DNA of 64,000 nt, taken from the NCBI GenBank assembly GCA_035623075.1, contig DASPUC010000022.1:124001-188000 (forward strand), in the 5' to 3' direction. How positions within the stretch are numbered: the stretch's first letter is position 1; each line of letters begins with the position of its first letter. Of this stretch, positions 1,160 to 10,898 are shown in pieces. The DNA is from Nitrospiraceae bacterium. GTDB lineage: Bacteria > Nitrospirota > Nitrospiria > Nitrospirales > Nitrospiraceae. Below the pieces are notes generated by a model. The model was given only the letters and a program-made list of their open reading frames with translations. It did not search any database and was not told the DNA's origin. A program made the translations under genes and the position numbers.

Positions 1160-2107
1160 TCAGGCCGTCTGTTCAGCTTTTTTTACCCTGTCCCAGTACG
1201 TATTTATTCGAGTCTGGATGTGCACGATGACTTCCGTCTGCACGATCGGCTCGAAGAGATGGCGGAACCGACCTTGGAGTTTGAGATAATCTTCGACAGG
1301 TTGGAGTGTAGGCATGTAGGTATGCACCACGTTGCCATTAATCGCTTCTTTCAATGGCCACAGTCCGCACTCCACCGCCAATCTCGCCACATCAGGAGTA
1401 TAGGCTGCATCAAATACCCATCCTGTCGGACATGCCGCGAACGCCAGGAAAAGTTTGGGACCGGGATAGCTCGCCGCGCGCAGAAATTTCTCTTCGAGGT
1501 CGAGTGGAAAACGAGGCGACACAGTCGCCATGTACGGAGGCTGATGTGCACGCCAGATTTCGAAAATGTCTTTCTTTTCCTGAGTGGTGCCGGCGGGGTG
1601 TTGCACCGCACAGGGTGAGGTGGCGGTTCTAGCACCATACGGGGTGGCAGGGCTGAGCTGAACCCCTGTGTTGCCGTAGGCTTCGTTGTCGTAACAGAAA
1701 TAATAAAAATCCAACTTCCTGCTAATGGCCCCTGATGTCGATGAAAGCGCCATGTCGTAGGTCGATCCGTCTCCGCCCAACACCACCACTTTGACATCTT
1801 CTTCCTTCGGCAATCGCCCTTTGGCAATCAACACATCGAGAGCATCGCGAACACCCTGTGCCCCGGCCGGTGCTGATCCCATCGTTGTGTAGAGCCAGGA
1901 CGCATCGAGCGGCGTGAAAGGGAAGGCCGCCAGGTTGGTGAAGCAGCCTGCTGCATTGACGTAAACGACACGGCTGCCGAGCACCTTGGACGCAAGCCGC
2001 AACGATTCGAGTCCTCCACAGCCAGCGCAGAGCGGTGTGCCAGGAAACACATGCTCTTCTCGAGGAATCTGATGCAACTCTTTGAAGATATGTGGCTCCC
2101 AAGCCAT
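1160..2107 (-). CDS. porB: Pyruvate/2-oxoacid:ferredoxin oxidoreductase, beta subunit
   Basis: This 315-aa protein carries the thiamine diphosphate site of POR. The GDG at the start of the GDGSTYDMALSS stretch, followed by NEAYGNTGVQ, binds the Mg-diphosphate. The early CAGCG pair and the later Cys in AAGC and SPC fit the extra [4Fe-4S] cluster of PorB. The start at 2107 (MAWEPHIF) is chosen because it lies 8 nt after the porA stop; the open frame upstream overlaps porA and looks non-coding. The enzyme interconverts pyruvate plus CoA with acetyl-CoA, CO2 and reduced ferredoxin. In autotrophic Nitrospira-like organisms it can run reductively in the reverse TCA cycle. A related 2-oxoacid substrate cannot be excluded from sequence. 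Confidence 0.93.
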   Translation of the reverse strand: MAWEPHIFKELHQIPREEHVFPGTPLCAGCGGLESLRLASKVLGSRVVYVNAAGCFTNLAAFPFTPLDASWLYTTMGSAPAGAQGVRDALDVLIAKGRLPKEEDVKVVVLGGDGSTYDMALSSTSGAISRKLDFYYFCYDNEAYGNTGVQLSPATPYGARTATSPCAVQHPAGTTQEKKDIFEIWRAHQPPYMATVSPRFPLDLEEKFLRAASYPGPKLFLAFAACPTGWVFDAAYTPDVARLAVECGLWPLKEAINGNVVHTYMPTLQPVEDYLKLQGRFRHLFEPIVQTEVIVHIQTRINTYWDRVKKAEQTA

Positions 2108-2115
2108 GCTGCATC

Positions 2116-3357
2116 TCACCTGCCAGTTTTGAGTTCGTGCGCGAGGTACTGGAGCTGTTCTATCTCTCGATGCTCGCTTTCGGTATAGAGCAACACCGGT
2201 CCGATCCCTTTCCCCCGGACTCCGGCATCCGCTGTTTGTTCGAAGATCGCTTGGAATTCTCCCTCGGACAGATTCTTTCCTCCCAGACCCCCGATGAATG
2301 AACAAAGTGCTCTCGGCCGCAAGGCTTCGTGGTAAAGACAGGCTGAAATCTCCTGAAACAGAATACCGCCCTGCCCCGGTGACAGATTTTGATCCAACAC
2401 AGCCACGGCCCGGCGGCCTTGCAGCGCCTGCTGGATCGCAGTGGTCGGCCAGGGACGGATCACACGCAACCGAAGCAATCCCACACGGCGGCCCTGTCCC
2501 CTCGCCGCGTCGACCGCTGCCTTCCCTTTGCTCGCAAAGGCGTTGGTCATGACGAGGACATCCTCTGCCTCATCAAGACGGTAGCCTTCCACCAGGTCGT
2601 AGCGACGGCCACAGAGCCGTTCGAAGTCCGTAGCCGCCTCTTCATGCACTTGAAGCGCGTTCATTGAAGCGAGATGGATTTGGTGACGGAAGTAACTGTA
2701 AGTCGATCCGCCGAGCACTGCCGTCCCGAGCGCGTGAGGGACCGACGCTTTGAACCCCAGATGAGCCGGACGGAACGGCGGCAGGAAAGCCTGCACCATC
2801 TGTGGATCAGGTAGGATGACCGGCTCGCGCGTGAAGGAAAGATAAAATCCGTCCAGATTCACCATGACGGGCAGACAGACCCGCTGGTCTTCAGCGATGC
2901 GGTACGCCATAATGATGGAGTCCACCACTTCCTGACAGGTTTCAGCATGGATCTGTAGAAAACCGGAATCTCTCGCTGCCAGGACGTCATTGTGGTCCGG
3001 CTCCAGGGTGATCGGCGACGCCAGCGCGCGGGACACGTTCACCAGCACGAACGGCACCCGCCATCCCACCACCGTGTAGAGCACCTCGAAGGCGTGAAGC
3101 AGGCCTTGGCTCGACGTCGCGGTAAACACGCGCGCACCAGTTGCCGCCGCCGCTCCTGCCGCAGTCATCATCGAATGTTCCGAATCGAGCGTGATGAAGC
3201 GGGCATTGAGTGATCCGTCCCCGCACCACTTGGAAAGAGCTTCGACGATTTCCGTTTGCGGAGTGATCGGAAACGCCGGGACATAGTCCACGTCGGACAG
3301 ACGAGCTCCCCAGGCTGCTGCGAGATTGCCGGTCATCATCTGGTGTGTCTGGTTCAT
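2116..3357 (-). CDS. porA: Pyruvate/2-oxoacid:ferredoxin oxidoreductase, alpha subunit
   Basis: The 413-aa product has the PorA core: a pyrimidine-binding PFOR domain starting at FPITPQTE, the DSEHSMMTAAGAAAATGAR segment, and a C-terminal transketolase-like domain II. It pairs with PorB to form the thiamine diphosphate active site. The gene lies 8 nt before porB and about 115 nt after the gamma-delta gene. Its first codons (MNQTHQMM) are the last copies of a degenerate AACCAGACA-like repeat that fills the upstream gap, so the N-terminus may be repeat-derived or the start may be a little further in. There are no ferredoxin domains in this chain; those are on the gamma-delta protein. Confidence 0.93.
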   Translation of the reverse strand: MNQTHQMMTGNLAAAWGARLSDVDYVPAFPITPQTEIVEALSKWCGDGSLNARFITLDSEHSMMTAAGAAAATGARVFTATSSQGLLHAFEVLYTVVGWRVPFVLVNVSRALASPITLEPDHNDVLAARDSGFLQIHAETCQEVVDSIIMAYRIAEDQRVCLPVMVNLDGFYLSFTREPVILPDPQMVQAFLPPFRPAHLGFKASVPHALGTAVLGGSTYSYFRHQIHLASMNALQVHEEAATDFERLCGRRYDLVEGYRLDEAEDVLVMTNAFASKGKAAVDAARGQGRRVGLLRLRVIRPWPTTAIQQALQGRRAVAVLDQNLSPGQGGILFQEISACLYHEALRPRALCSFIGGLGGKNLSEGEFQAIFEQTADAGVRGKGIGPVLLYTESEHREIEQLQYLAHELKTGR

Positions 3358-3465
3358 CTAGTTTGTCTGGGTTGTTTGGTTTATTTGGTTCATTTCGTTG
3401 GTCCGGTTTCTTTCGATGTCTGGCTTATTTCGTTCCTCAGACCAAGGAAACAAGACAAACCAAAT
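3340..3465 (-). repeat. Degenerate 9-nt tandem repeat between porGD and porA, with inverted copy
   Basis: Read on the minus strand, this stretch is a run of imperfect nonamers of the type AACCAGACA / AACCAAACA / AACCAAATA, which continue into the first codons of porA. At 3451-3470 the plus strand carries a copy in the opposite orientation (caagacaaaccaaatagacc). The two arms can pair imperfectly and could form a long hairpin in the porGD-porA mRNA. No gene fits here. Confidence 0.7.
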
Positions 3466-3472
3466 AGACCGT

Positions 3473-4372
3473 TCAGCCTACATTCGTTTCCCGTTCCACG
3501 GTCATTGCGTCGGTCGGACAGACTTCGACGCAATCAAGACAGCCTTTACAGTGCGGATAGTAGATGGCGGGCTTGCCATCCGGTTTGATCGTAATTGCTC
3601 CTTCCGGACAGTTGGCAAAACAGAGCCAGCAGCCATTGCAGAGGTCCGGCCGCAAGACCGGACGGAATGTCCGCCACCCGCTCATCGAGCGGATAGCAGA
3701 ATTAGGTCCGGCCGTAATACTGGCGGTTCCTCTCGTCGGTGATTCATACGCCGGAGCCCATAGCTTCGCCAGAGCTGCAGGCTGGCGCGCACTTCTGTCA
3801 ATAGAGATGACCGGCACTGCTTCATAGGAGCGAAGCCCTACCGCTTGATTACTCTCGATGTCCGATGCGGCAAGACCGAGCTCACTCAATTCCCGCGCGA
3901 TCGCCTCTTGGATTGATTCCCTACGAAGTCCGACGAGTCGTCCGGCTATGGCTCCAAGCAAGGCGCTGATCGCTCCTCGCTTGCCAAAATGCTCAAGCGC
4001 CATCTGGTTGAGGTCCAATGTCGAGAGACGACCGTAAAGAGCGGTCTGAGCCCGTATTTGTTTGGGACTGAGTGGAGAATTGACGAACAGGGCCGTTCCT
4101 TCGTCGACACCCTCCGACACGCGGGCGGCAGGATCTGGGATGAGCGACGCATCTGCGACCACGACTAGATCGGGACTGACGATGAATCCCCGCTCGCGAA
4201 TCGGCTCTTTCGCAATCCGCGTAAACGCATACATCGGCGCGCCCCGGCGCTCAGCCCCGTAGATCGGAGAATCCTGTGCCTGATATCCTTCCAGAAAAGC
4301 TGCGGTTCCAAGAATCCGACTGGCAGTCTTCGCCCCCTGCCCGCCTCGGCCATGAAAGCGAATGGATAGCAC
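3473..4372 (-). CDS. porG: Pyruvate:ferredoxin oxidoreductase, fused gamma-delta subunit
   Basis: The 299-aa chain joins two POR subunits. Residues 1 to about 185 are the gamma domain (begins MLSIRFHGRGGQGAKTASRI, the GxGGQG signature). After a short linker, the last 65 residues are a delta-type ferredoxin with two [4Fe-4S] motifs, CNGCWLCFANCP and CKGCLDCVEVCP. The ferredoxin part passes electrons between the PorB cluster and soluble ferredoxin. Gamma-delta fusion is known in some bacterial PORs. The gene is first of the three por genes and 12 nt downstream of the YtxH gene, so the four genes probably form one transcript. Confidence 0.92.
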   Translation of the reverse strand: MLSIRFHGRGGQGAKTASRILGTAAFLEGYQAQDSPIYGAERRGAPMYAFTRIAKEPIRERGFIVSPDLVVVADASLIPDPAARVSEGVDEGTALFVNSPLSPKQIRAQTALYGRLSTLDLNQMALEHFGKRGAISALLGAIAGRLVGLRRESIQEAIARELSELGLAASDIESNQAVGLRSYEAVPVISIDRSARQPAALAKLWAPAYESPTRGTASITAGPNSAIRSMSGWRTFRPVLRPDLCNGCWLCFANCPEGAITIKPDGKPAIYYPHCKGCLDCVEVCPTDAMTVERETNVG

Positions 4373-4915: not shown

Positions 4916-5521
4916 TCACGGAGTGATGTCCGGACCGGCGCAACACCCTCCATTCCTTGGTTCTATGCCACCTGATCGATGAGGGCCCCTATGACCCATC
5001 CCGTGACCCGGTCCCTGCGCTCCTGCGAAGCTACGCTCGTACTGGATGATGGCCCAAATTTCCTCATCCGTGAGCTGGCCGACGAATCCGATCATGCTGG
5101 TGCCGGGCGAGCCGTTCTTGATCACCCAGAAGATTTCGCCTTCGGTGCGATGCCGCCAGAATCCATGGTGGTGGAAGTTTCTCGGGGCTGGGTCGAGCCC
5201 GGTCGCAGCCGGACCGTTTCCCATTCCGTCCTTGCCGTGGCAGTTGAAGCAGGTACCTTTGCCGTTATAGAGGACCTTCCCTTTTTCGACGACGTCGGGG
5301 GAGTCTGGCAACGGACTCGTGAGAGTGCGCGCCTCTGCAAGCTTGTCGGCCGGCACCCGCGGCTGCATCATGTGTTGCTCGGCAGCCGGTACGGGAGCAA
5401 CAACGAAACCAACGAACAGCGACGTCGCGACCAACACCCGCACTGCCACCCTCACAGCCTTACGGTTTCCCCGGTAAAAGGCGATTCTGTCATCCCGTTC
5501 TGCAACGACCCACTTTGGCAT
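4916..5521 (-). CDS. Monohaem class I cytochrome c, exported
   Basis: The 201-aa protein has a basic N-terminus, a hydrophobic export segment (about residues 24-45, ending PVPAAEQ) and one class I cytochrome c domain. The domain carries haem motif CFNCH, the NGPAATGLDPAPRNF loop, and a distal Met in GTSMIGF. The C-terminal 35 residues are rich in Gly and His and may bind metal. It starts 4 nt after the stop of the tri-haem cytochrome gene and is the last gene of the sulfite/thiosulfate cytochrome operon. The likely role is periplasmic electron shuttle to a terminal oxidase or other cytochromes. A later start inside the export segment is possible. Confidence 0.87.
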   Translation of the reverse strand: MPKWVVAERDDRIAFYRGNRKAVRVAVRVLVATSLFVGFVVAPVPAAEQHMMQPRVPADKLAEARTLTSPLPDSPDVVEKGKVLYNGKGTCFNCHGKDGMGNGPAATGLDPAPRNFHHHGFWRHRTEGEIFWVIKNGSPGTSMIGFVGQLTDEEIWAIIQYERSFAGAQGPGHGMGHRGPHRSGGIEPRNGGCCAGPDITP

Positions 5522-5525
5522 ACCG

Positions 5526-6536
5526 TTAACGTGGTCCTTTGAAGGTCGCTTTCAGATACGCCATGACATCGGCGACTCCCTGTTGGTCGATGGTCAAACG
5601 CCAATAGGGCATGTTCGCGGATTTCCCCATCGCTGCACCGCCGTAATTGATCATGTTGTAGAGATATTCCGTCGGCACCTCGCTGAAGTTGATATTGGCA
5701 TGGATCGCCGGTTTCGGCTCCAGCGTCGCCGCAGCCGGACCGTCACCCTTGCCGGTAAACCCGTGACACTGCGCACAATACTCTTTGTAGATGACCTTGC
5801 CCCGACCGACGCTGGCCTTGCCAAACTCCGGCGCCGTCCAGGGCTCGTAATATTTGAAGTCCGGCACGTCCTGCGCGGCAAGATATCCGATCACAGCCCG
5901 CAATTGCGGATCCGTCGCATCGGCCAGAAATTCACCAGTGTGGATGATGAAGTCCTGCGGGTTCTGCCCAAAACGGTAGAGCCAGTCCATGTTGTACCGC
6001 TGGCCCGCATTCTGCAAGGCAGCACTCTGCTGCCCGCCGATCAGCTTCCCATTTTCCTCGATTGTGTGACAGCCAAGGCAGGCGTGCGCTTTATAGGCCA
6101 CGCCGCCGAACGCGGCCTCGAACTTGGTCACCTTCGAGACGTCGAACGCGCCGACTTTCACCCGGGGATCTTTGTTGTTCTTCTCGAAATAATCCGCAAT
6201 GGCTTCTGCATCCGAATCCGCCACGACGGGATGTTTGACTGCCGTTTCACTGAGATCCCATCGATACCCTTTGGCATAGAGAGTCGCTTCTTTTCCGGTC
6301 AGCCACCGAATCAACCAAGACCGTTGATACTTACTGCCTGCCCAGATCAGGTCCGGCGCTCTAAGATTGAAGCGTGACTCTGCCTGGCCTTCCAATCGAT
6401 GACACTGAACGCAGGCCTGCTGAATCAATTCCTTCGCCCGGGTCTGATCGCTCCCGAACAACAGACGCGGAGCTGAGATCACCCCCACCAATAGCAGCAG
6501 CGCGCCTCCGATGACTACCCCTTTCCTCACATTCAT
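5526..6536 (-). CDS. Tri-haem c-type cytochrome
   Basis: From the start at 6536 (MNVRKGVVIGG, with AAGGA 7 nt upstream) the 336-aa protein has a signal anchor and three haem motifs: CVQCH, CLGCH and CAQCH. Each sits in a class I cytochrome c-like domain. The third domain (KVIYKEYCAQCHGFTGKGDG to the end) is the most canonical. An alternative start at 6551 is equally placed; the much longer open frame upstream overlaps the neighbouring dihaem gene and is not used. It follows the dihaem gene by 37 nt and precedes the monohaem gene by 4 nt. It probably forms a wire from the sulfite dehydrogenase towards the respiratory chain. Confidence 0.88.
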   Translation of the reverse strand: MNVRKGVVIGGALLLLVGVISAPRLLFGSDQTRAKELIQQACVQCHRLEGQAESRFNLRAPDLIWAGSKYQRSWLIRWLTGKEATLYAKGYRWDLSETAVKHPVVADSDAEAIADYFEKNNKDPRVKVGAFDVSKVTKFEAAFGGVAYKAHACLGCHTIEENGKLIGGQQSAALQNAGQRYNMDWLYRFGQNPQDFIIHTGEFLADATDPQLRAVIGYLAAQDVPDFKYYEPWTAPEFGKASVGRGKVIYKEYCAQCHGFTGKGDGPAAATLEPKPAIHANINFSEVPTEYLYNMINYGGAAMGKSANMPYWRLTIDQQGVADVMAYLKATFKGPR

Positions 6537-6573
6537 GACGGCTTCCTTCATCTGTAGCACCCTCATCAAGGCG

Positions 6574-7206
6574 TTATTGTGATAATAACCAGGCATGAAT
6601 ATCGGCAATTTCCTGCTGATTGAGGACGGACCCCCAAGCAGGCATTGGCCCCCGCCCATGCAACACGGTTTCCCAAAACAGATCCTCCTGCGTAAGAATC
6701 GGATTCTTCGCCAGCTTCGGACCCATACCTCCCATGGCTCCGGTCCCATGACAGGCTTGGCAATTGTGAGCAAAAATGTCTGCACCTCTTGCCGCCACGC
6801 CGACCATCCGTCCTCCAGCAGCCGGCTCTTGCGTGAGCGGCTCCGTTTTCCCGATTTCATGGTTGAGCGGCGGCACTCGGTCCGGGGCGCCCGGATGGTA
6901 GCGGGCGGACAGATACCGCACCAGCAACTCGGCTTCATCCTTGGATATTTCTGCGCCCCAATGCCTCATTTTCTCGACCGTGGCTTCCCATCGCACCAGC
7001 GGCAATCGCTGTTGCACGATGAGATCCGCGCTGTGGCAGACGGAACAGCGAGCGAGGATCAATCCTTCCGCACGTGGCGCCAGCGACACGCTCACCGTAG
7101 CCAAGTTCTCTTCTTCCGCCGACGTTATGACGGCGAGACCAAGAAGCGCGCTGATCATGAAGAGAACAGCTCCCCCTCGCCTTATGCCTGACGCCTGACG
7201 GTTCAT
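6574..7206 (-). CDS. Dihaem cytochrome c, probable partner of the sulfite dehydrogenase
   Basis: The start at 7206 gives a 210-aa exported protein. ATG overlaps the stop of the molybdoenzyme gene as ATGA, a sign of translational coupling. There are two haem motifs, CSVCH in a SorB-like N-terminal domain (LARCSVCHSADLI, later VEKMRHWGAEIS) and CQACH in a class I domain (HNCQACHGTGAMGGMGP). Sulfite dehydrogenases of the SorAB and SoxCD types pass electrons from a Mo centre to just such a cytochrome subunit, so this is the likely electron acceptor. The first codons (MNRQASGIRRG) come from a cgtcagg-type short repeat. Confidence 0.87.
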   Translation of the reverse strand: MNRQASGIRRGGAVLFMISALLGLAVITSAEEENLATVSVSLAPRAEGLILARCSVCHSADLIVQQRLPLVRWEATVEKMRHWGAEISKDEAELLVRYLSARYHPGAPDRVPPLNHEIGKTEPLTQEPAAGGRMVGVAARGADIFAHNCQACHGTGAMGGMGPKLAKNPILTQEDLFWETVLHGRGPMPAWGSVLNQQEIADIHAWLLSQ

Positions 7207-8405
7207 GCTTCTGTCACCGTTACCGTGACTCGATCCCATCCATTCCACAGAAACCCGCTTGGATTCCACGGACTCGTGGCCGGCTGCACGTCTCCGCGCT
7301 CATCGGTCGCACGACAGAGAATAGGGAACGTTCCGGCTGTCTTCGCGTTCCAGATCAATTGCCATTGTCTCCAGGCGTACGGTTGATCCTCGCCGACCAA
7401 GCGAGCCGGCTCCCAGGTTTTTCCCTCGTCGATCGACACCTCGACCTTCACCACCTTCGCCTCACCGCTCCAGGCCACACCTTGAATCGTGATGGAACCT
7501 GCCTTCACGGTTTCACCCTCTTGCGGCGCAGCAACAAGTGACTTCACGATCATCTTTTCCACCGGTGTCGATGGTCCGCTCGAGGATGTGCCGGGTTCCA
7601 CAGGCCTTGTCGGCACGCGATAGGCAGTTTGCATGTAATACCCCTTTGCCTCCTCCGTCTGGACCGTAATATCGGTCAACCACTTCGTGCATGAATCCGC
7701 CATCCACCCCGGCGTGATCACCCTGAGCGGCGCCCCATGCAACAGCGGCAGGGGGCGCCCGTTCATCTCGTAGGCGAGAATCGTGTCCGGATGAAGCGCC
7801 TTGTTAAGCGGGATGCTGCGGACGAACAGCGGCACTGAGTCGACGACCGGTCGATCAGCTCCTAGGAACTGCACGTGATGCGCCTGCTCCTTTATTCCTG
7901 CCTGCCCAAGCACATCGTGTAACCGCACACCAGTCCATTGCGCATTCCCGACGGCCCCGCGATCCCATTGCACTCCTGGAACTTTGGGACGATGATGAGC
8001 ACGGCCGTTACCGCTACATTGAACCACTGCCGTGATGGTTACAGATTCCATGTGACGTAAATCTTTCAGCGTGAACTCGCGTGATTGCTCGACCAAGCCA
8101 CCCACCCGTAATCTCCAATTGGCCTGGGAGATAGCCTCGGGCGGCGGCGGCCCGAAATGACTCCGGACGAAGAAACGGGAAGTCGGGGTTAGAAATGAGG
8201 TGAACTCGCGAACCGGTGTTTCGGCGTCGAGTGGATGTGTGACCCTGACGGTGAGAGATGCGGTCTCCCTCGTCCCGGCGCTTTCGTTGCCGGCATTGGC
8301 TGAACGGTGAAGGTTCGGCATGACCAAGCCAAGCCCGAGACCTTGAAGCAGCGTCTTGAGCATCGATCGGCGCGACGTTGGTGCGGCAGATCCTGTGGCG
8401 TTCAT
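7203..8405 (-). CDS. Tat-exported sulfite dehydrogenase / sulfite-oxidase-family molybdoenzyme
   Basis: The 400-aa protein starts at 8405 with an ATGA overlap on the OsmC gene. A twin-arginine leader (SRRSMLKTLLQGLGLG) is followed by the Mo-cofactor domain, with the Mo-ligand Cys in VVQCSGNGR and the RVITPGWMADSCTKWL segment. The C-terminal Mo-co dimerisation (Ig-like) domain starts near KSLVAAPQEGE and ends at the typical WNPSGFLWNGW. This is the full sulfite oxidase layout without haem b. It would oxidise sulfite to sulfate in the periplasm and reduce the adjacent dihaem cytochrome. Family members can also act on other substrates, so substrate is inferred from the neighbours (thiosulfate-dehydrogenase-like gene, haem partner). 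Confidence 0.9.
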   Translation of the reverse strand: MNATGSAAPTSRRSMLKTLLQGLGLGLVMPNLHRSANAGNESAGTRETASLTVRVTHPLDAETPVREFTSFLTPTSRFFVRSHFGPPPPEAISQANWRLRVGGLVEQSREFTLKDLRHMESVTITAVVQCSGNGRAHHRPKVPGVQWDRGAVGNAQWTGVRLHDVLGQAGIKEQAHHVQFLGADRPVVDSVPLFVRSIPLNKALHPDTILAYEMNGRPLPLLHGAPLRVITPGWMADSCTKWLTDITVQTEEAKGYYMQTAYRVPTRPVEPGTSSSGPSTPVEKMIVKSLVAAPQEGETVKAGSITIQGVAWSGEAKVVKVEVSIDEGKTWEPARLVGEDQPYAWRQWQLIWNAKTAGTFPILCRATDERGDVQPATSPWNPSGFLWNGWDRVTVTVTEA

Positions 8406-8818
8406 GAACGCGTCACCGTATTGTTCTGAGGATTTAAATGGATCGCGACGGTCGGCGCGACCGCAATTGATTGATGAACCGTGCAACCGTGTGCGACTTT
8501 CAACAACCGTTCCTTCTGGTCCGGCGTGAGCCGATGGGGGAGATGAATCGCGAGAGTGATTCGCCCAACCCGATGCGGATTCTCCGCCGTCTCCCACTCA
8601 GCTTCCACCGACAGGCCGTCGCGGGGGATGCCATGCCGTGCACAGAACCGCCCGACGAAATAGCCGACGCAGCTTGCGATGGAGCCGACAAAGAGTTCGA
8701 CCGGACTCATTCCGGCATCCTGACCGCCGTCAACCACCGGTTGATCGGTCACCACTTTGTGGCGTCCACTGGTCACGTCATACCGTGTTCCGCTATGGAA
8801 AGCCACATGGATCGTCAT
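8402..8818 (-). CDS. OsmC/Ohr-family protein
   Basis: The start at 8818 (MTIHVAFHSGTRYDV, preceded by GGGAGAT) gives 138 aa with the OsmC fold: GMSPVELFVGSIASCVGYFVGRFC, then VGRITLAIHLP and HGCTVHQS. Two conserved Cys, one in the SIASC helix and one in the HGCTVH loop, form the peroxidatic pair in this family. These cytosolic proteins reduce organic hydroperoxides or handle sulfur-linked thiol chemistry. The stop overlaps the sulfite dehydrogenase start (ATGA), so the two are co-translated. OsmC-like genes near sulfur-oxidation genes may act as sulfur-handling proteins, but that is inference here. Confidence 0.86.
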   Translation of the reverse strand: MTIHVAFHSGTRYDVTSGRHKVVTDQPVVDGGQDAGMSPVELFVGSIASCVGYFVGRFCARHGIPRDGLSVEAEWETAENPHRVGRITLAIHLPHRLTPDQKERLLKVAHGCTVHQSIAVAPTVAIHLNPQNNTVTRS

Positions 8819-8867
8819 GACATCTCCCTCTGCTTGGACACCCGATGGCGATGCCCCATCACCATTT

Positions 8868-9713
8868 TCAATAGGGCGCATCCTGGGGCCTTCCTCCCTG
8901 CGGCCAGTCCTGAACCTTCTCGCTGCGATCCGGCCGAGGCTGGCTATTGATATATGCGGCGACATCGTAGGCTTCGTCGTCGGAGAGCGCCCATCCTCTC
9001 GTGCGCGGCATATTCGCTTTGATGAACGAGGCGGCCACGCTGTTACGCGCCATCTCTGACGCAATGGTATAGGATTTTGTTCCCCACACCGGTGGCGCGA
9101 TCATCGTCCCCTCCCCATCCGCTCCGTGGCAGAATACACAGCGAGTACCGAACACCTTCTTTCCGTTGACGGGATCAGGCGATCGCGCCGTTTGAATCCG
9201 CGGTACTCCCCGCCACTGGATTACGCTTCCAACCGGAACATTCTCAGATAACCAATCGATGTAGGCGACGACCGCTTGGAGTTTTGAACTATCCGGGGGG
9301 AGCGGCTTTCCGTTCAAATTCCGCTCAAAACATTCATTCACTCGGTCGGCCAAGGTCATGACACGGGCAACGCGAGCCCGGTATTCAGGATAGACGCGAC
9401 TGAGCCCCACGAACGACGCCGCATTCGGGTCCAAGCCCGCGTCCAGATGACAATTCGTGCAGTTCAATTTATTTCCCACATATGCCGCAGCATAGTCCTG
9501 CGTATGGACGACGATCTGATACCCGAGGCGAATCTGCTCTCCTCGCTGATCGCCGGGAATGGTTTCAGGAGAAGGCGGGGAAAAGATCGCATCGAGCGAT
9601 GACGAAGTCCGTCTCGCGGGAAATTCCTCGCGCCGGGAGGCATTCTGTGAGTCCACACAGCCATTGAGAAGTACTGCGAGCGTGAAGACCAGGATCCCTG
9701 TGAGACGGTTCAT
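8868..9713 (-). CDS. Dihaem cytochrome c, thiosulfate dehydrogenase (TsdA)-like lipoprotein
   Basis: The 281-aa protein starts at 9713 with a lipobox (LLNGC). The first haem domain has the pattern I associate with TsdA: LNCTNCHLDAGLDPNAA, YPEYRAR, then the NECFERNLNGKPLP loop, whose Cys is the unusual haem ligand of thiosulfate dehydrogenases. The second domain has CVFCH and a Met-containing loop (KANMPRTRGW). TsdA couples two thiosulfates to tetrathionate or runs in reverse. It is the first gene of a run that continues with OsmC, sulfite dehydrogenase and three more cytochromes. TsdA versus a paralogous dihaem cytochrome needs alignment. Confidence 0.83.
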   Translation of the reverse strand: MNRLTGILVFTLAVLLNGCVDSQNASRREEFPARRTSSSLDAIFSPPSPETIPGDQRGEQIRLGYQIVVHTQDYAAAYVGNKLNCTNCHLDAGLDPNAASFVGLSRVYPEYRARVARVMTLADRVNECFERNLNGKPLPPDSSKLQAVVAYIDWLSENVPVGSVIQWRGVPRIQTARSPDPVNGKKVFGTRCVFCHGADGEGTMIAPPVWGTKSYTIASEMARNSVAASFIKANMPRTRGWALSDDEAYDVAAYINSQPRPDRSEKVQDWPQGGRPQDAPY

Positions 9714-9941: not shown

Positions 9942-10109
9942 TTATGTCACGTGTTGCGCAGGAGGCCCGGCGCTGGCAAGGAAATCCGCTTCTACCATTT
10001 CAACTACCGCCTGTTGCGTTACCACAGGCTCCGGCGGTGGGGGTGGATGGCAGGCGGAGAGCCCGACCAGGCTGATCCCAGCGGCAACGATCAGGCCAGC
10101 TCCGTTCAT
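9942..10109 (-). CDS. 55-aa putative lipoprotein
   Basis: A short frame of 55 codons starts at 10109, 15 nt after the stop of the DUF2892 gene, with a strong Shine-Dalgarno (AGGGAGGA). The sequence is a signal segment with a clean lipobox (LVGLSAC), a proline run (HPPPPPEP), and a short tail ending QHVT. No domain is recognisable. Coupling to the DUF2892 gene, the RBS and the lipobox make it a convincing gene despite its size. The function is unknown. Confidence 0.65.
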   Translation of the reverse strand: MNGAGLIVAAGISLVGLSACHPPPPPEPVVTQQAVVEMVEADFLASAGPPAQHVT

Positions 10110-10124
10110 ACTTGCAATCCTCCC

Positions 10125-10343
10125 TTAGACCTTGCGCAGGGTATTCGTTGGGCAGGTATTGAAGCCCAACAAGGCCCAAGCAGGACAATAACCGATCGCT
10201 CCGGTGACCAAGGCGATCGTCCCGACCACGAGTAGTACAGTCCTCGCCACGACCGGCAATCCCACGAACGCCCCGACCCCCAGGAGTACGATTCCCAACA
10301 CGATCCGAATCGGCCGCTCAATTCCTCCAACGTTGCATTTCAT
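10125..10343 (-). CDS. DUF2892 (YgaP-like) inner-membrane protein
   Basis: The 72-aa protein has the family layout: MKCNVGGIERPIRIVLGI, two membrane helices, and IGYCPAWALLGFNTCP at the end. The first half (NVGGxERxIRIxLG) and the conserved Cys in CPAW and NTCP are diagnostic of DUF2892. Related C-terminal domains occur in rhodanese fusions (YgaP), so a link with sulfur chemistry is possible, which would fit the neighbouring sulfite and thiosulfate genes. The start at 10343 has a strong RBS (GGAGGAAAC). Confidence 0.88.
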   Translation of the reverse strand: MKCNVGGIERPIRIVLGIVLLGVGAFVGLPVVARTVLLVVGTIALVTGAIGYCPAWALLGFNTCPTNTLRKV

Positions 10344-10529: not shown

Positions 10530-10898
10530 CTAATGTTCTTTCAAGGTCCTGATGTAGGCCAGCACATCCCAAATCTCATCGTCCGACAGGGAGTATTTCC
10601 AAGCCCCCATAGCCGTGTTCGCTTTGCCATCGTGAATGCGCTTGAAGAGACTGGCATCCAGTCGGTTCTGTACACCATCCGACGTGAGGTCAGCCGGAGG
10701 CGGGGTGAGTTTGATACCCATTGCGCCCTTTCCATCGATCCCATGGCAACGGATGCAGGTATTGGCATAGATTTCCCGGCCGCTCACCGCATCTCGCTCT
10801 TTTGCAGAGACGGGGAGGTCCTTCAACCCTGGTCCTCCGGCAAACCCAAGACCCGCCATTCCAAACACCACACAGATAAGAACCATCGTGCGTCGCAT
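10530..10898 (-). CDS. Monohaem class I cytochrome c
   Basis: The 122-aa protein has a signal peptide (MRRTMVLICVVFGMAGLGFAG) and a compact class I cytochrome c domain: haem motif CIRCH in NTCIRCHGIDGKGAMG, and C-terminal SLSDDEIWDVLAYIRTL. The distal ligand is probably Met in TAMGAWKY. It is a soluble periplasmic electron carrier. It sits alone in its transcription unit, 187 nt from DUF2892, with a -24/-12-like promoter 41 nt upstream of its start. Confidence 0.9.
   Translation of the reverse strand: MRRTMVLICVVFGMAGLGFAGGPGLKDLPVSAKERDAVSGREIYANTCIRCHGIDGKGAMGIKLTPPPADLTSDGVQNRLDASLFKRIHDGKANTAMGAWKYSLSDDEIWDVLAYIRTLKEH

Follow-up and report, generated by a model that had tools for sequence, protein, structure and literature searches.

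We analyzed a 64,000-nucleotide stretch of contig DASPUC010000022.1 from a Nitrospiraceae bacterium (the window) and, by inspection of the sequence and its open reading frames, found six tightly packed genes on the minus strand between positions 4916 and 9713. From 5' to 3' on that strand, these encode a TsdA-type dihaem cytochrome c (thiosulfate dehydrogenase/tetrathionate reductase; 8868-9713, 281 aa, two CxxCH motifs), an OsmC-like protein (8402-8818, 138 aa; PF02566, E 2.3e-14), a SorA-like periplasmic sulfite dehydrogenase catalytic (Mo) subunit with an SRRSMLK twin-arginine signal (7203-8405, 400 aa), a dihaem partner combining a SorB-like haem domain with a class I cytochrome c domain (6574-7206, 210 aa), a tri-haem cytochrome c with three CxxCH motifs (5526-6551, 341 aa), and a mono-haem cytochrome c related to Leptospirillum cytochrome 579 (4916-5521, 201 aa; NF033864, E 4.6e-42). 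Together, the four cytochromes contain eight CxxCH motifs. The intergenic gaps, in the same order, are 49, -4, -4, 22 and 4 nt. The original prediction had described this run as a TsdA-like cytochrome, OsmC, a Tat-exported sulfite dehydrogenase and three further cytochromes, and each gene lies where it was placed; the gaps of -4 nt at the OsmC/SorA and SorA/dihaem junctions show that the two ATGA overlaps it claimed are real.

Upstream, conservation extends past the limits drawn in the original prediction. A gene for a YgaP-like small membrane protein (10125-10343, minus strand; PF11127, E 1.1e-18) has counterparts at 36 of the 40 relative loci, and a gene for another mono-haem cytochrome c (10530-10898, minus strand; PF13442, E 4.5e-14) is matched, by synteny, upstream of TsdA in most relatives. 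The small open reading frame at 9942-10109 had no counterpart in any relative locus and was left out of the module. A promoter scan gave nothing above shuffled sequences, and a terminator scan gave 8 sites compared to 5.4 expected. Just downstream of the module, the window carries 2-oxoacid:ferredoxin oxidoreductase genes (1160-4372; POR_N, TPP and POR-Fer4), which probably serve carbon fixation; about ten relative loci have homologues close to the module.

The TsdA and SorA-like enzymes and their cytochromes

Nearly the whole TsdA candidate aligned with the solved TsdA of Allochromatium vinosum (AvTsdA, 4v2k; phmmer E 7.9e-52, 42% identity across 225 residues) and with Marichromatium purpuratum TsdBA (5lo9; phmmer E 3.3e-43), and its N-terminal part matched the SoxA-TsdA domain PF21342 (E 6.5e-13). 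The CxxCH motifs are at residues 85 and 192, and an LLNGC motif suggests that the product is probably a lipoprotein. Cys128, the ligand of the active-site haem 1, aligns with Cys96 of AvTsdA and Cys138 of Campylobacter jejuni TsdA (CjTsdA), and is invariant in 40/40 Nitrospiraceae orthologues; the corresponding cysteine is required for CjTsdA activity (PMC5146829). The original prediction had staked the TsdA assignment on this cysteine, and its presence in every orthologue, together with the full-length match to solved TsdAs, upholds the assignment. Both CxxCH motifs and the equivalents of AvTsdA Arg82 and Arg92 are likewise kept in all 40 orthologues, as is the haem-2 ligand Met235, the equivalent of AvTsdA Met209. 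The residue preceding this methionine is Asn234 (Asn in 38/40 orthologues), compared to Lys208 in AvTsdA, and the resulting Asn-Met motif is shared in our alignment with C. jejuni TsdA and M. purpuratum TsdBA. SoxA was considered as an alternative identity and rejected, given a TIGR04484 score of 39.5 bits against a cut-off of 110 and the nearly full-length match of the solved TsdAs.

The Mo subunit scored highest with the SorA profile NF052245 (320 bits), followed by SorT (256 bits) and SoxC (215 bits), each below its equivalog cut-off (600 bits for SorA, 420 bits for SoxC), and we therefore refer to it as SorA-like rather than as a filed SorA. It matched Starkeya novella SorA (2blf_A) with an E value of 8.3e-68, and the equivalents of S. 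novella Arg55, His57, the Mo-binding Cys104, Arg109 and Tyr236 are present in 29/29 SorA orthologues, nearly all of which have a visible twin-arginine signal. SoxC and MsrP are less likely identities of the Mo enzyme, both scoring below SorA; a search of the genome gave no SoxY match, but the control for that search matched nowhere either. Residues 49-103 of the dihaem partner form a SorB-like domain (NF052246, E 2.4e-13; residues 50-102 against the SorB chain 2blf_B, E 1.5e-4 by profile search) that precedes a second cytochrome c domain; its 49.9 bits fall below the curated NF052246 value of 93, and the domain is fused rather than a stand-alone mono-haem subunit. Met80 and Met188 are invariant in the alignment of this partner, which is consistent with two His/Met haems. 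The predicted sulfite dehydrogenase hence stands as a member of the sulfite-oxidase family closest to SorA, with the full active-site set and a SorB-like partner. A second protein of the same family, with 33% identity to SorA, is encoded elsewhere in the genome (L003, G000:C34:20615-21478).

The OsmC-like protein shows no signal peptide, and its Cys50, Cys59 and Cys112 are invariant (40/40). The tri-haem cytochrome is strongly conserved (alignment A1, 21 sequences); most relatives encode a four-haem version with an extra C-terminal domain that resembles the product of the last gene of the operon. That mono-haem product scored 144 bits with the cytochrome 579 profile NF033864, against a cut-off of 280, and is no more than a homologue of cytochrome 579, the iron-oxidation cytochrome of Leptospirillum. 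In one relative a dihaem homologue of the tri-haem cytochrome directly follows cytochrome b (L045:6903-7619) and may connect complex III with the module for electron transfer. AlphaFold predictions for the tri-haem and dihaem cytochromes (pLDDT 51 and 64, respectively) were too poor in quality for a structure search.

The host and the distribution of the module in Nitrospiraceae

The host genome (3.39 Mb, 99.9% complete) contains an NxrA-type open reading frame of 1149 codons followed by the start of NxrB, both assigned by reading the translation. A search for ammonia monooxygenase found nothing in the host genome; the same search gave matches in 46 of 147 family genomes. The presence of NxrA/NxrB and the negative search indicate a canonical nitrite oxidizer of the Nitrospira family rather than a comammox organism; the original prediction had assumed life on nitrite or ammonia. 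The host genome gave no match to the PF04143 transporter; it has two DsrE genes away from the module, and the orthologue of cytochrome b is carried by a different contig.

We surveyed 147 Nitrospiraceae genomes (G000-G146) and found TsdA in 100 and SorA in 71; the two occurred together in 53 genomes, TsdA only in 47 and SorA only in 18. SorA was located downstream of TsdA, on the same strand and within 6.1 kb, in 50 of the 53 genomes with both (median gap, 528 nt). The 4-nt overlap between SorA and the dihaem gene recurred in 16/29 loci and that between OsmC and SorA in 10/28, while the pairwise divergences of the genes were correlated (TsdA-SorA r = 0.93; 0/300 permutations). The recurrence of gene order and overlaps in relatives and the correlated divergences argue that the arrangement is not due to chance, and the module genes appear to be co-inherited. 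The TsdA of the window falls inside the Nitrospira clade, and two further families of the order have TsdA as well, with 46-59% identity. The survey ruled out the possibility that the cluster is peculiar to the host organism; judged by gene content, the putative module is a trait of the family, beyond the single genome of the original prediction. Two contigs (L090 and L093) assigned to a Pyrinomonadaceae MAG, isolate SH2, carry a Nitrospira-type TsdA, L093 along with OsmC, SorA, dihaem and tri-haem genes, probably as a result of binning contamination.

The two enzymes differ in their association with amoA. Among amoA-bearing genomes, 39/46 had TsdA and only 1/46 had SorA, whereas SorA was present in 70/101 genomes lacking amoA. 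The contrast held in both genera with comammox members (SorA in 1/34 amoA-positive vs 12/17 amoA-negative genomes, and in 0/12 vs 13/18), with the reservation that the Fisher p values ignore relatedness and that some genomes are incomplete. Since comammox lineages are few, the gap represents a small number of losses and not 46 separate events, which suggests from gene presence that sulfite oxidation has been lost repeatedly in comammox. In most loci without SorA, OsmC adjoins the tri-haem gene directly or nearly so.

Several further genes accompany the module in relatives. Paired half-size PF04143 (YeeE/YedE) transporter genes lie between TsdA and OsmC in 10/40 loci (e.g. L064:9855-10406 and L053:8220-8720); proteins of the YeeE type take up thiosulfate (PMC11073785) or sulfur for oxidation (PMC11582611). 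A DsrE-family gene was found in 36 and PPK2 in 28 of the 40 relative loci, and Rieske and cytochrome b genes lie just upstream in about half of them.

Proposed function and comparison with known systems

The enzyme identities, well supported by sequence, and the conservation of the module make auxiliary electron input from thiosulfate and sulfite the best reading, and we consider it likely that the operon is a periplasmic entry point for electrons from partly oxidized sulfur compounds in a nitrite oxidizer, for which the 'alternative donor route' of the original prediction is the natural interpretation. In the route that we infer, a probably lipid-anchored TsdA would oxidize two thiosulfate to tetrathionate at its His/Cys haem and release the electrons through the His/Met haem 2, while the Tat-exported SorA would convert sulfite to sulfate at the Mo centre and pass its electrons to the SorB-like haem domain of the dihaem partner. 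The tri-haem and cytochrome-579-like proteins would then carry electrons to the cytochrome c pool, and from there either onward to a terminal oxidase or, with complex III running in reverse, to the quinone pool; the OsmC-like protein, presumably cytoplasmic, would handle thiol or persulfide side products. Counted in favor of sulfur electron input were the TsdA ligands, the SorA active site and the SorB-like partner, the PF04143, DsrE and Rieske/cytochrome b neighbours in relatives, family conservation and co-inheritance, and NxrA/NxrB with no ammonia monooxygenase found. Counted against it were the reversibility of TsdA, its Asn234-Met235 motif (like the C. jejuni reductase and unlike A. vinosum), the lack of a PF04143 match in the host, the location of cytochrome b on another contig, the SorA score under the equivalog cut-off, and the separability of TsdA and SorA (47 and 18 genomes).

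A less probable role, to which we still give some weight, is detoxification or sulfur housekeeping, whereby thiosulfate, and sulfite released when thiols or sulfonates are broken down, would be oxidized to prevent harm and the electrons discharged into cytochrome c with no benefit to growth. In eukaryotes, this sulfite oxidation has a detoxifying role (PMC3578206), and an OsmC with invariant cysteines in the operon suggests thiol or peroxide stress; however, four cytochromes with eight haems would exceed the electron-handling need of detoxification alone, and complex III genes adjoin the module in relatives. We think it improbable that TsdA acts as a tetrathionate reductase under hypoxia, using an alternative electron acceptor, with SorA separately removing sulfite. 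TsdA enzymes run in both directions (PMC6879331), the direction of the predicted reaction cannot be read from sequence, and the C. jejuni enzyme with its Asn-Met haem 2 is a tetrathionate reductase in vivo (PMC5146829), but M. purpuratum TsdBA shares the motif, which alone therefore does not fix the direction. The operon also pairs TsdA with an oxidative sulfite dehydrogenase, and the thiosulfate/tetrathionate couple, at +198 mV (PMC9562282), is able to donate electrons to cytochrome c of high potential. The SorA and SorB matches under the NCBIfam equivalog cut-offs could also mean that sulfite is not the substrate of the Mo enzyme and that the genes form a general electron-transfer island with no sulfur function; we regard this as very improbable in view of the complete sulfite-oxidase active-site set, the SorB-like partner, the TsdA cysteine ligand, and the PF04143 and DsrE neighbours in relatives.

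Extending the reading of sulfur electron input to the family, we tentatively propose, while thinking it somewhat doubtful, that thiosulfate serves Nitrospira nitrifiers in general as an auxiliary donor that has been overlooked: nitrite oxidizers and comammox would have in common a core of TsdA, OsmC and cytochromes that is wired to complex III, and the arm of SorA and its SorB-like partner would have been lost repeatedly in comammox lineages, some of which would retain a thiosulfate importer together with DsrE to handle sulfur in the cytoplasm. Nitrospira belong to the most widespread nitrifiers, and a conserved module for thiosulfate and sulfite would widen their list of donors beyond nitrite, ammonia, hydrogen and formate. 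It would also link nitrogen cycling with sulfur cycling in a single organism, and might be part of the reason why Nitrospira survive at oxic-anoxic interfaces. Thiosulfate is also an agricultural nitrification inhibitor (PMC6091914), so that the way in which nitrifiers themselves process it matters in practice.

A sulfite dehydrogenase is described for Nitrospina gracilis (PMC3578206) and for comammox and some nitrite-oxidizing Nitrospira (PMC7078480), and SorAB in Nitrospira is given as largely restricted to lineage IV (PMC12342949). A Nitrospira sulfite dehydrogenase is hence already known, whereas we found no paper describing Nitrospira TsdA or the combined module in a literature search without most subscription journals or any preprints. 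Since the operon is conserved in most relatives and our search gave no account of it as a unit, nitrifiers may have in sulfur a side-fuel that has been overlooked. Thiosulfate oxidation 'via the sox pathway' has been assigned to clade B comammox MAGs (PMC10504367), and this assignment may reflect the present TsdA read as SoxA.

The closest known counterparts are of four kinds. By sequence, the putative TsdA has the dihaem architecture of the A. vinosum (4v2k), C. jejuni and M. purpuratum (TsdBA, 5lo9) enzymes, with a His/Cys haem 1 and the haem-2 methionine, but it is a probable lipoprotein, its gene is linked to a sulfite dehydrogenase, and Asn takes the place of AvTsdA Lys208. Its operon partner is a tri- or tetra-haem cytochrome rather than TsdB, a dihaem cytochrome. 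The SorA-like enzyme shares catalytic residues, Tat export and an adjoining cytochrome with a SorB-like haem domain with S. novella SorAB (2blf); in contrast, its identity to S. novella SorA is about 39%, its score is under the SorA equivalog cut-off, and its partner is dihaem through fusion of the SorB-like domain with a further cytochrome c domain. TsdA has been reported in 'Ca. Nitrotoga', where the tsdA region likewise places TsdA, cytochromes and sulfur-compound transport in a nitrite oxidizer (PMC9239080), although in another phylum and in one lake ecotype only, and we liken the two by description rather than by sequence. The nitrifier sulfite dehydrogenases (PMC3578206, PMC7078480, PMC12342949) resemble the predicted enzyme as periplasmic sulfite:cytochrome c oxidoreductases for which an alternative donor route is proposed; in the passages of those reports that we consulted the enzyme is listed alone, whereas here it is accompanied by TsdA, OsmC and more cytochromes in a module common across the sampled family.
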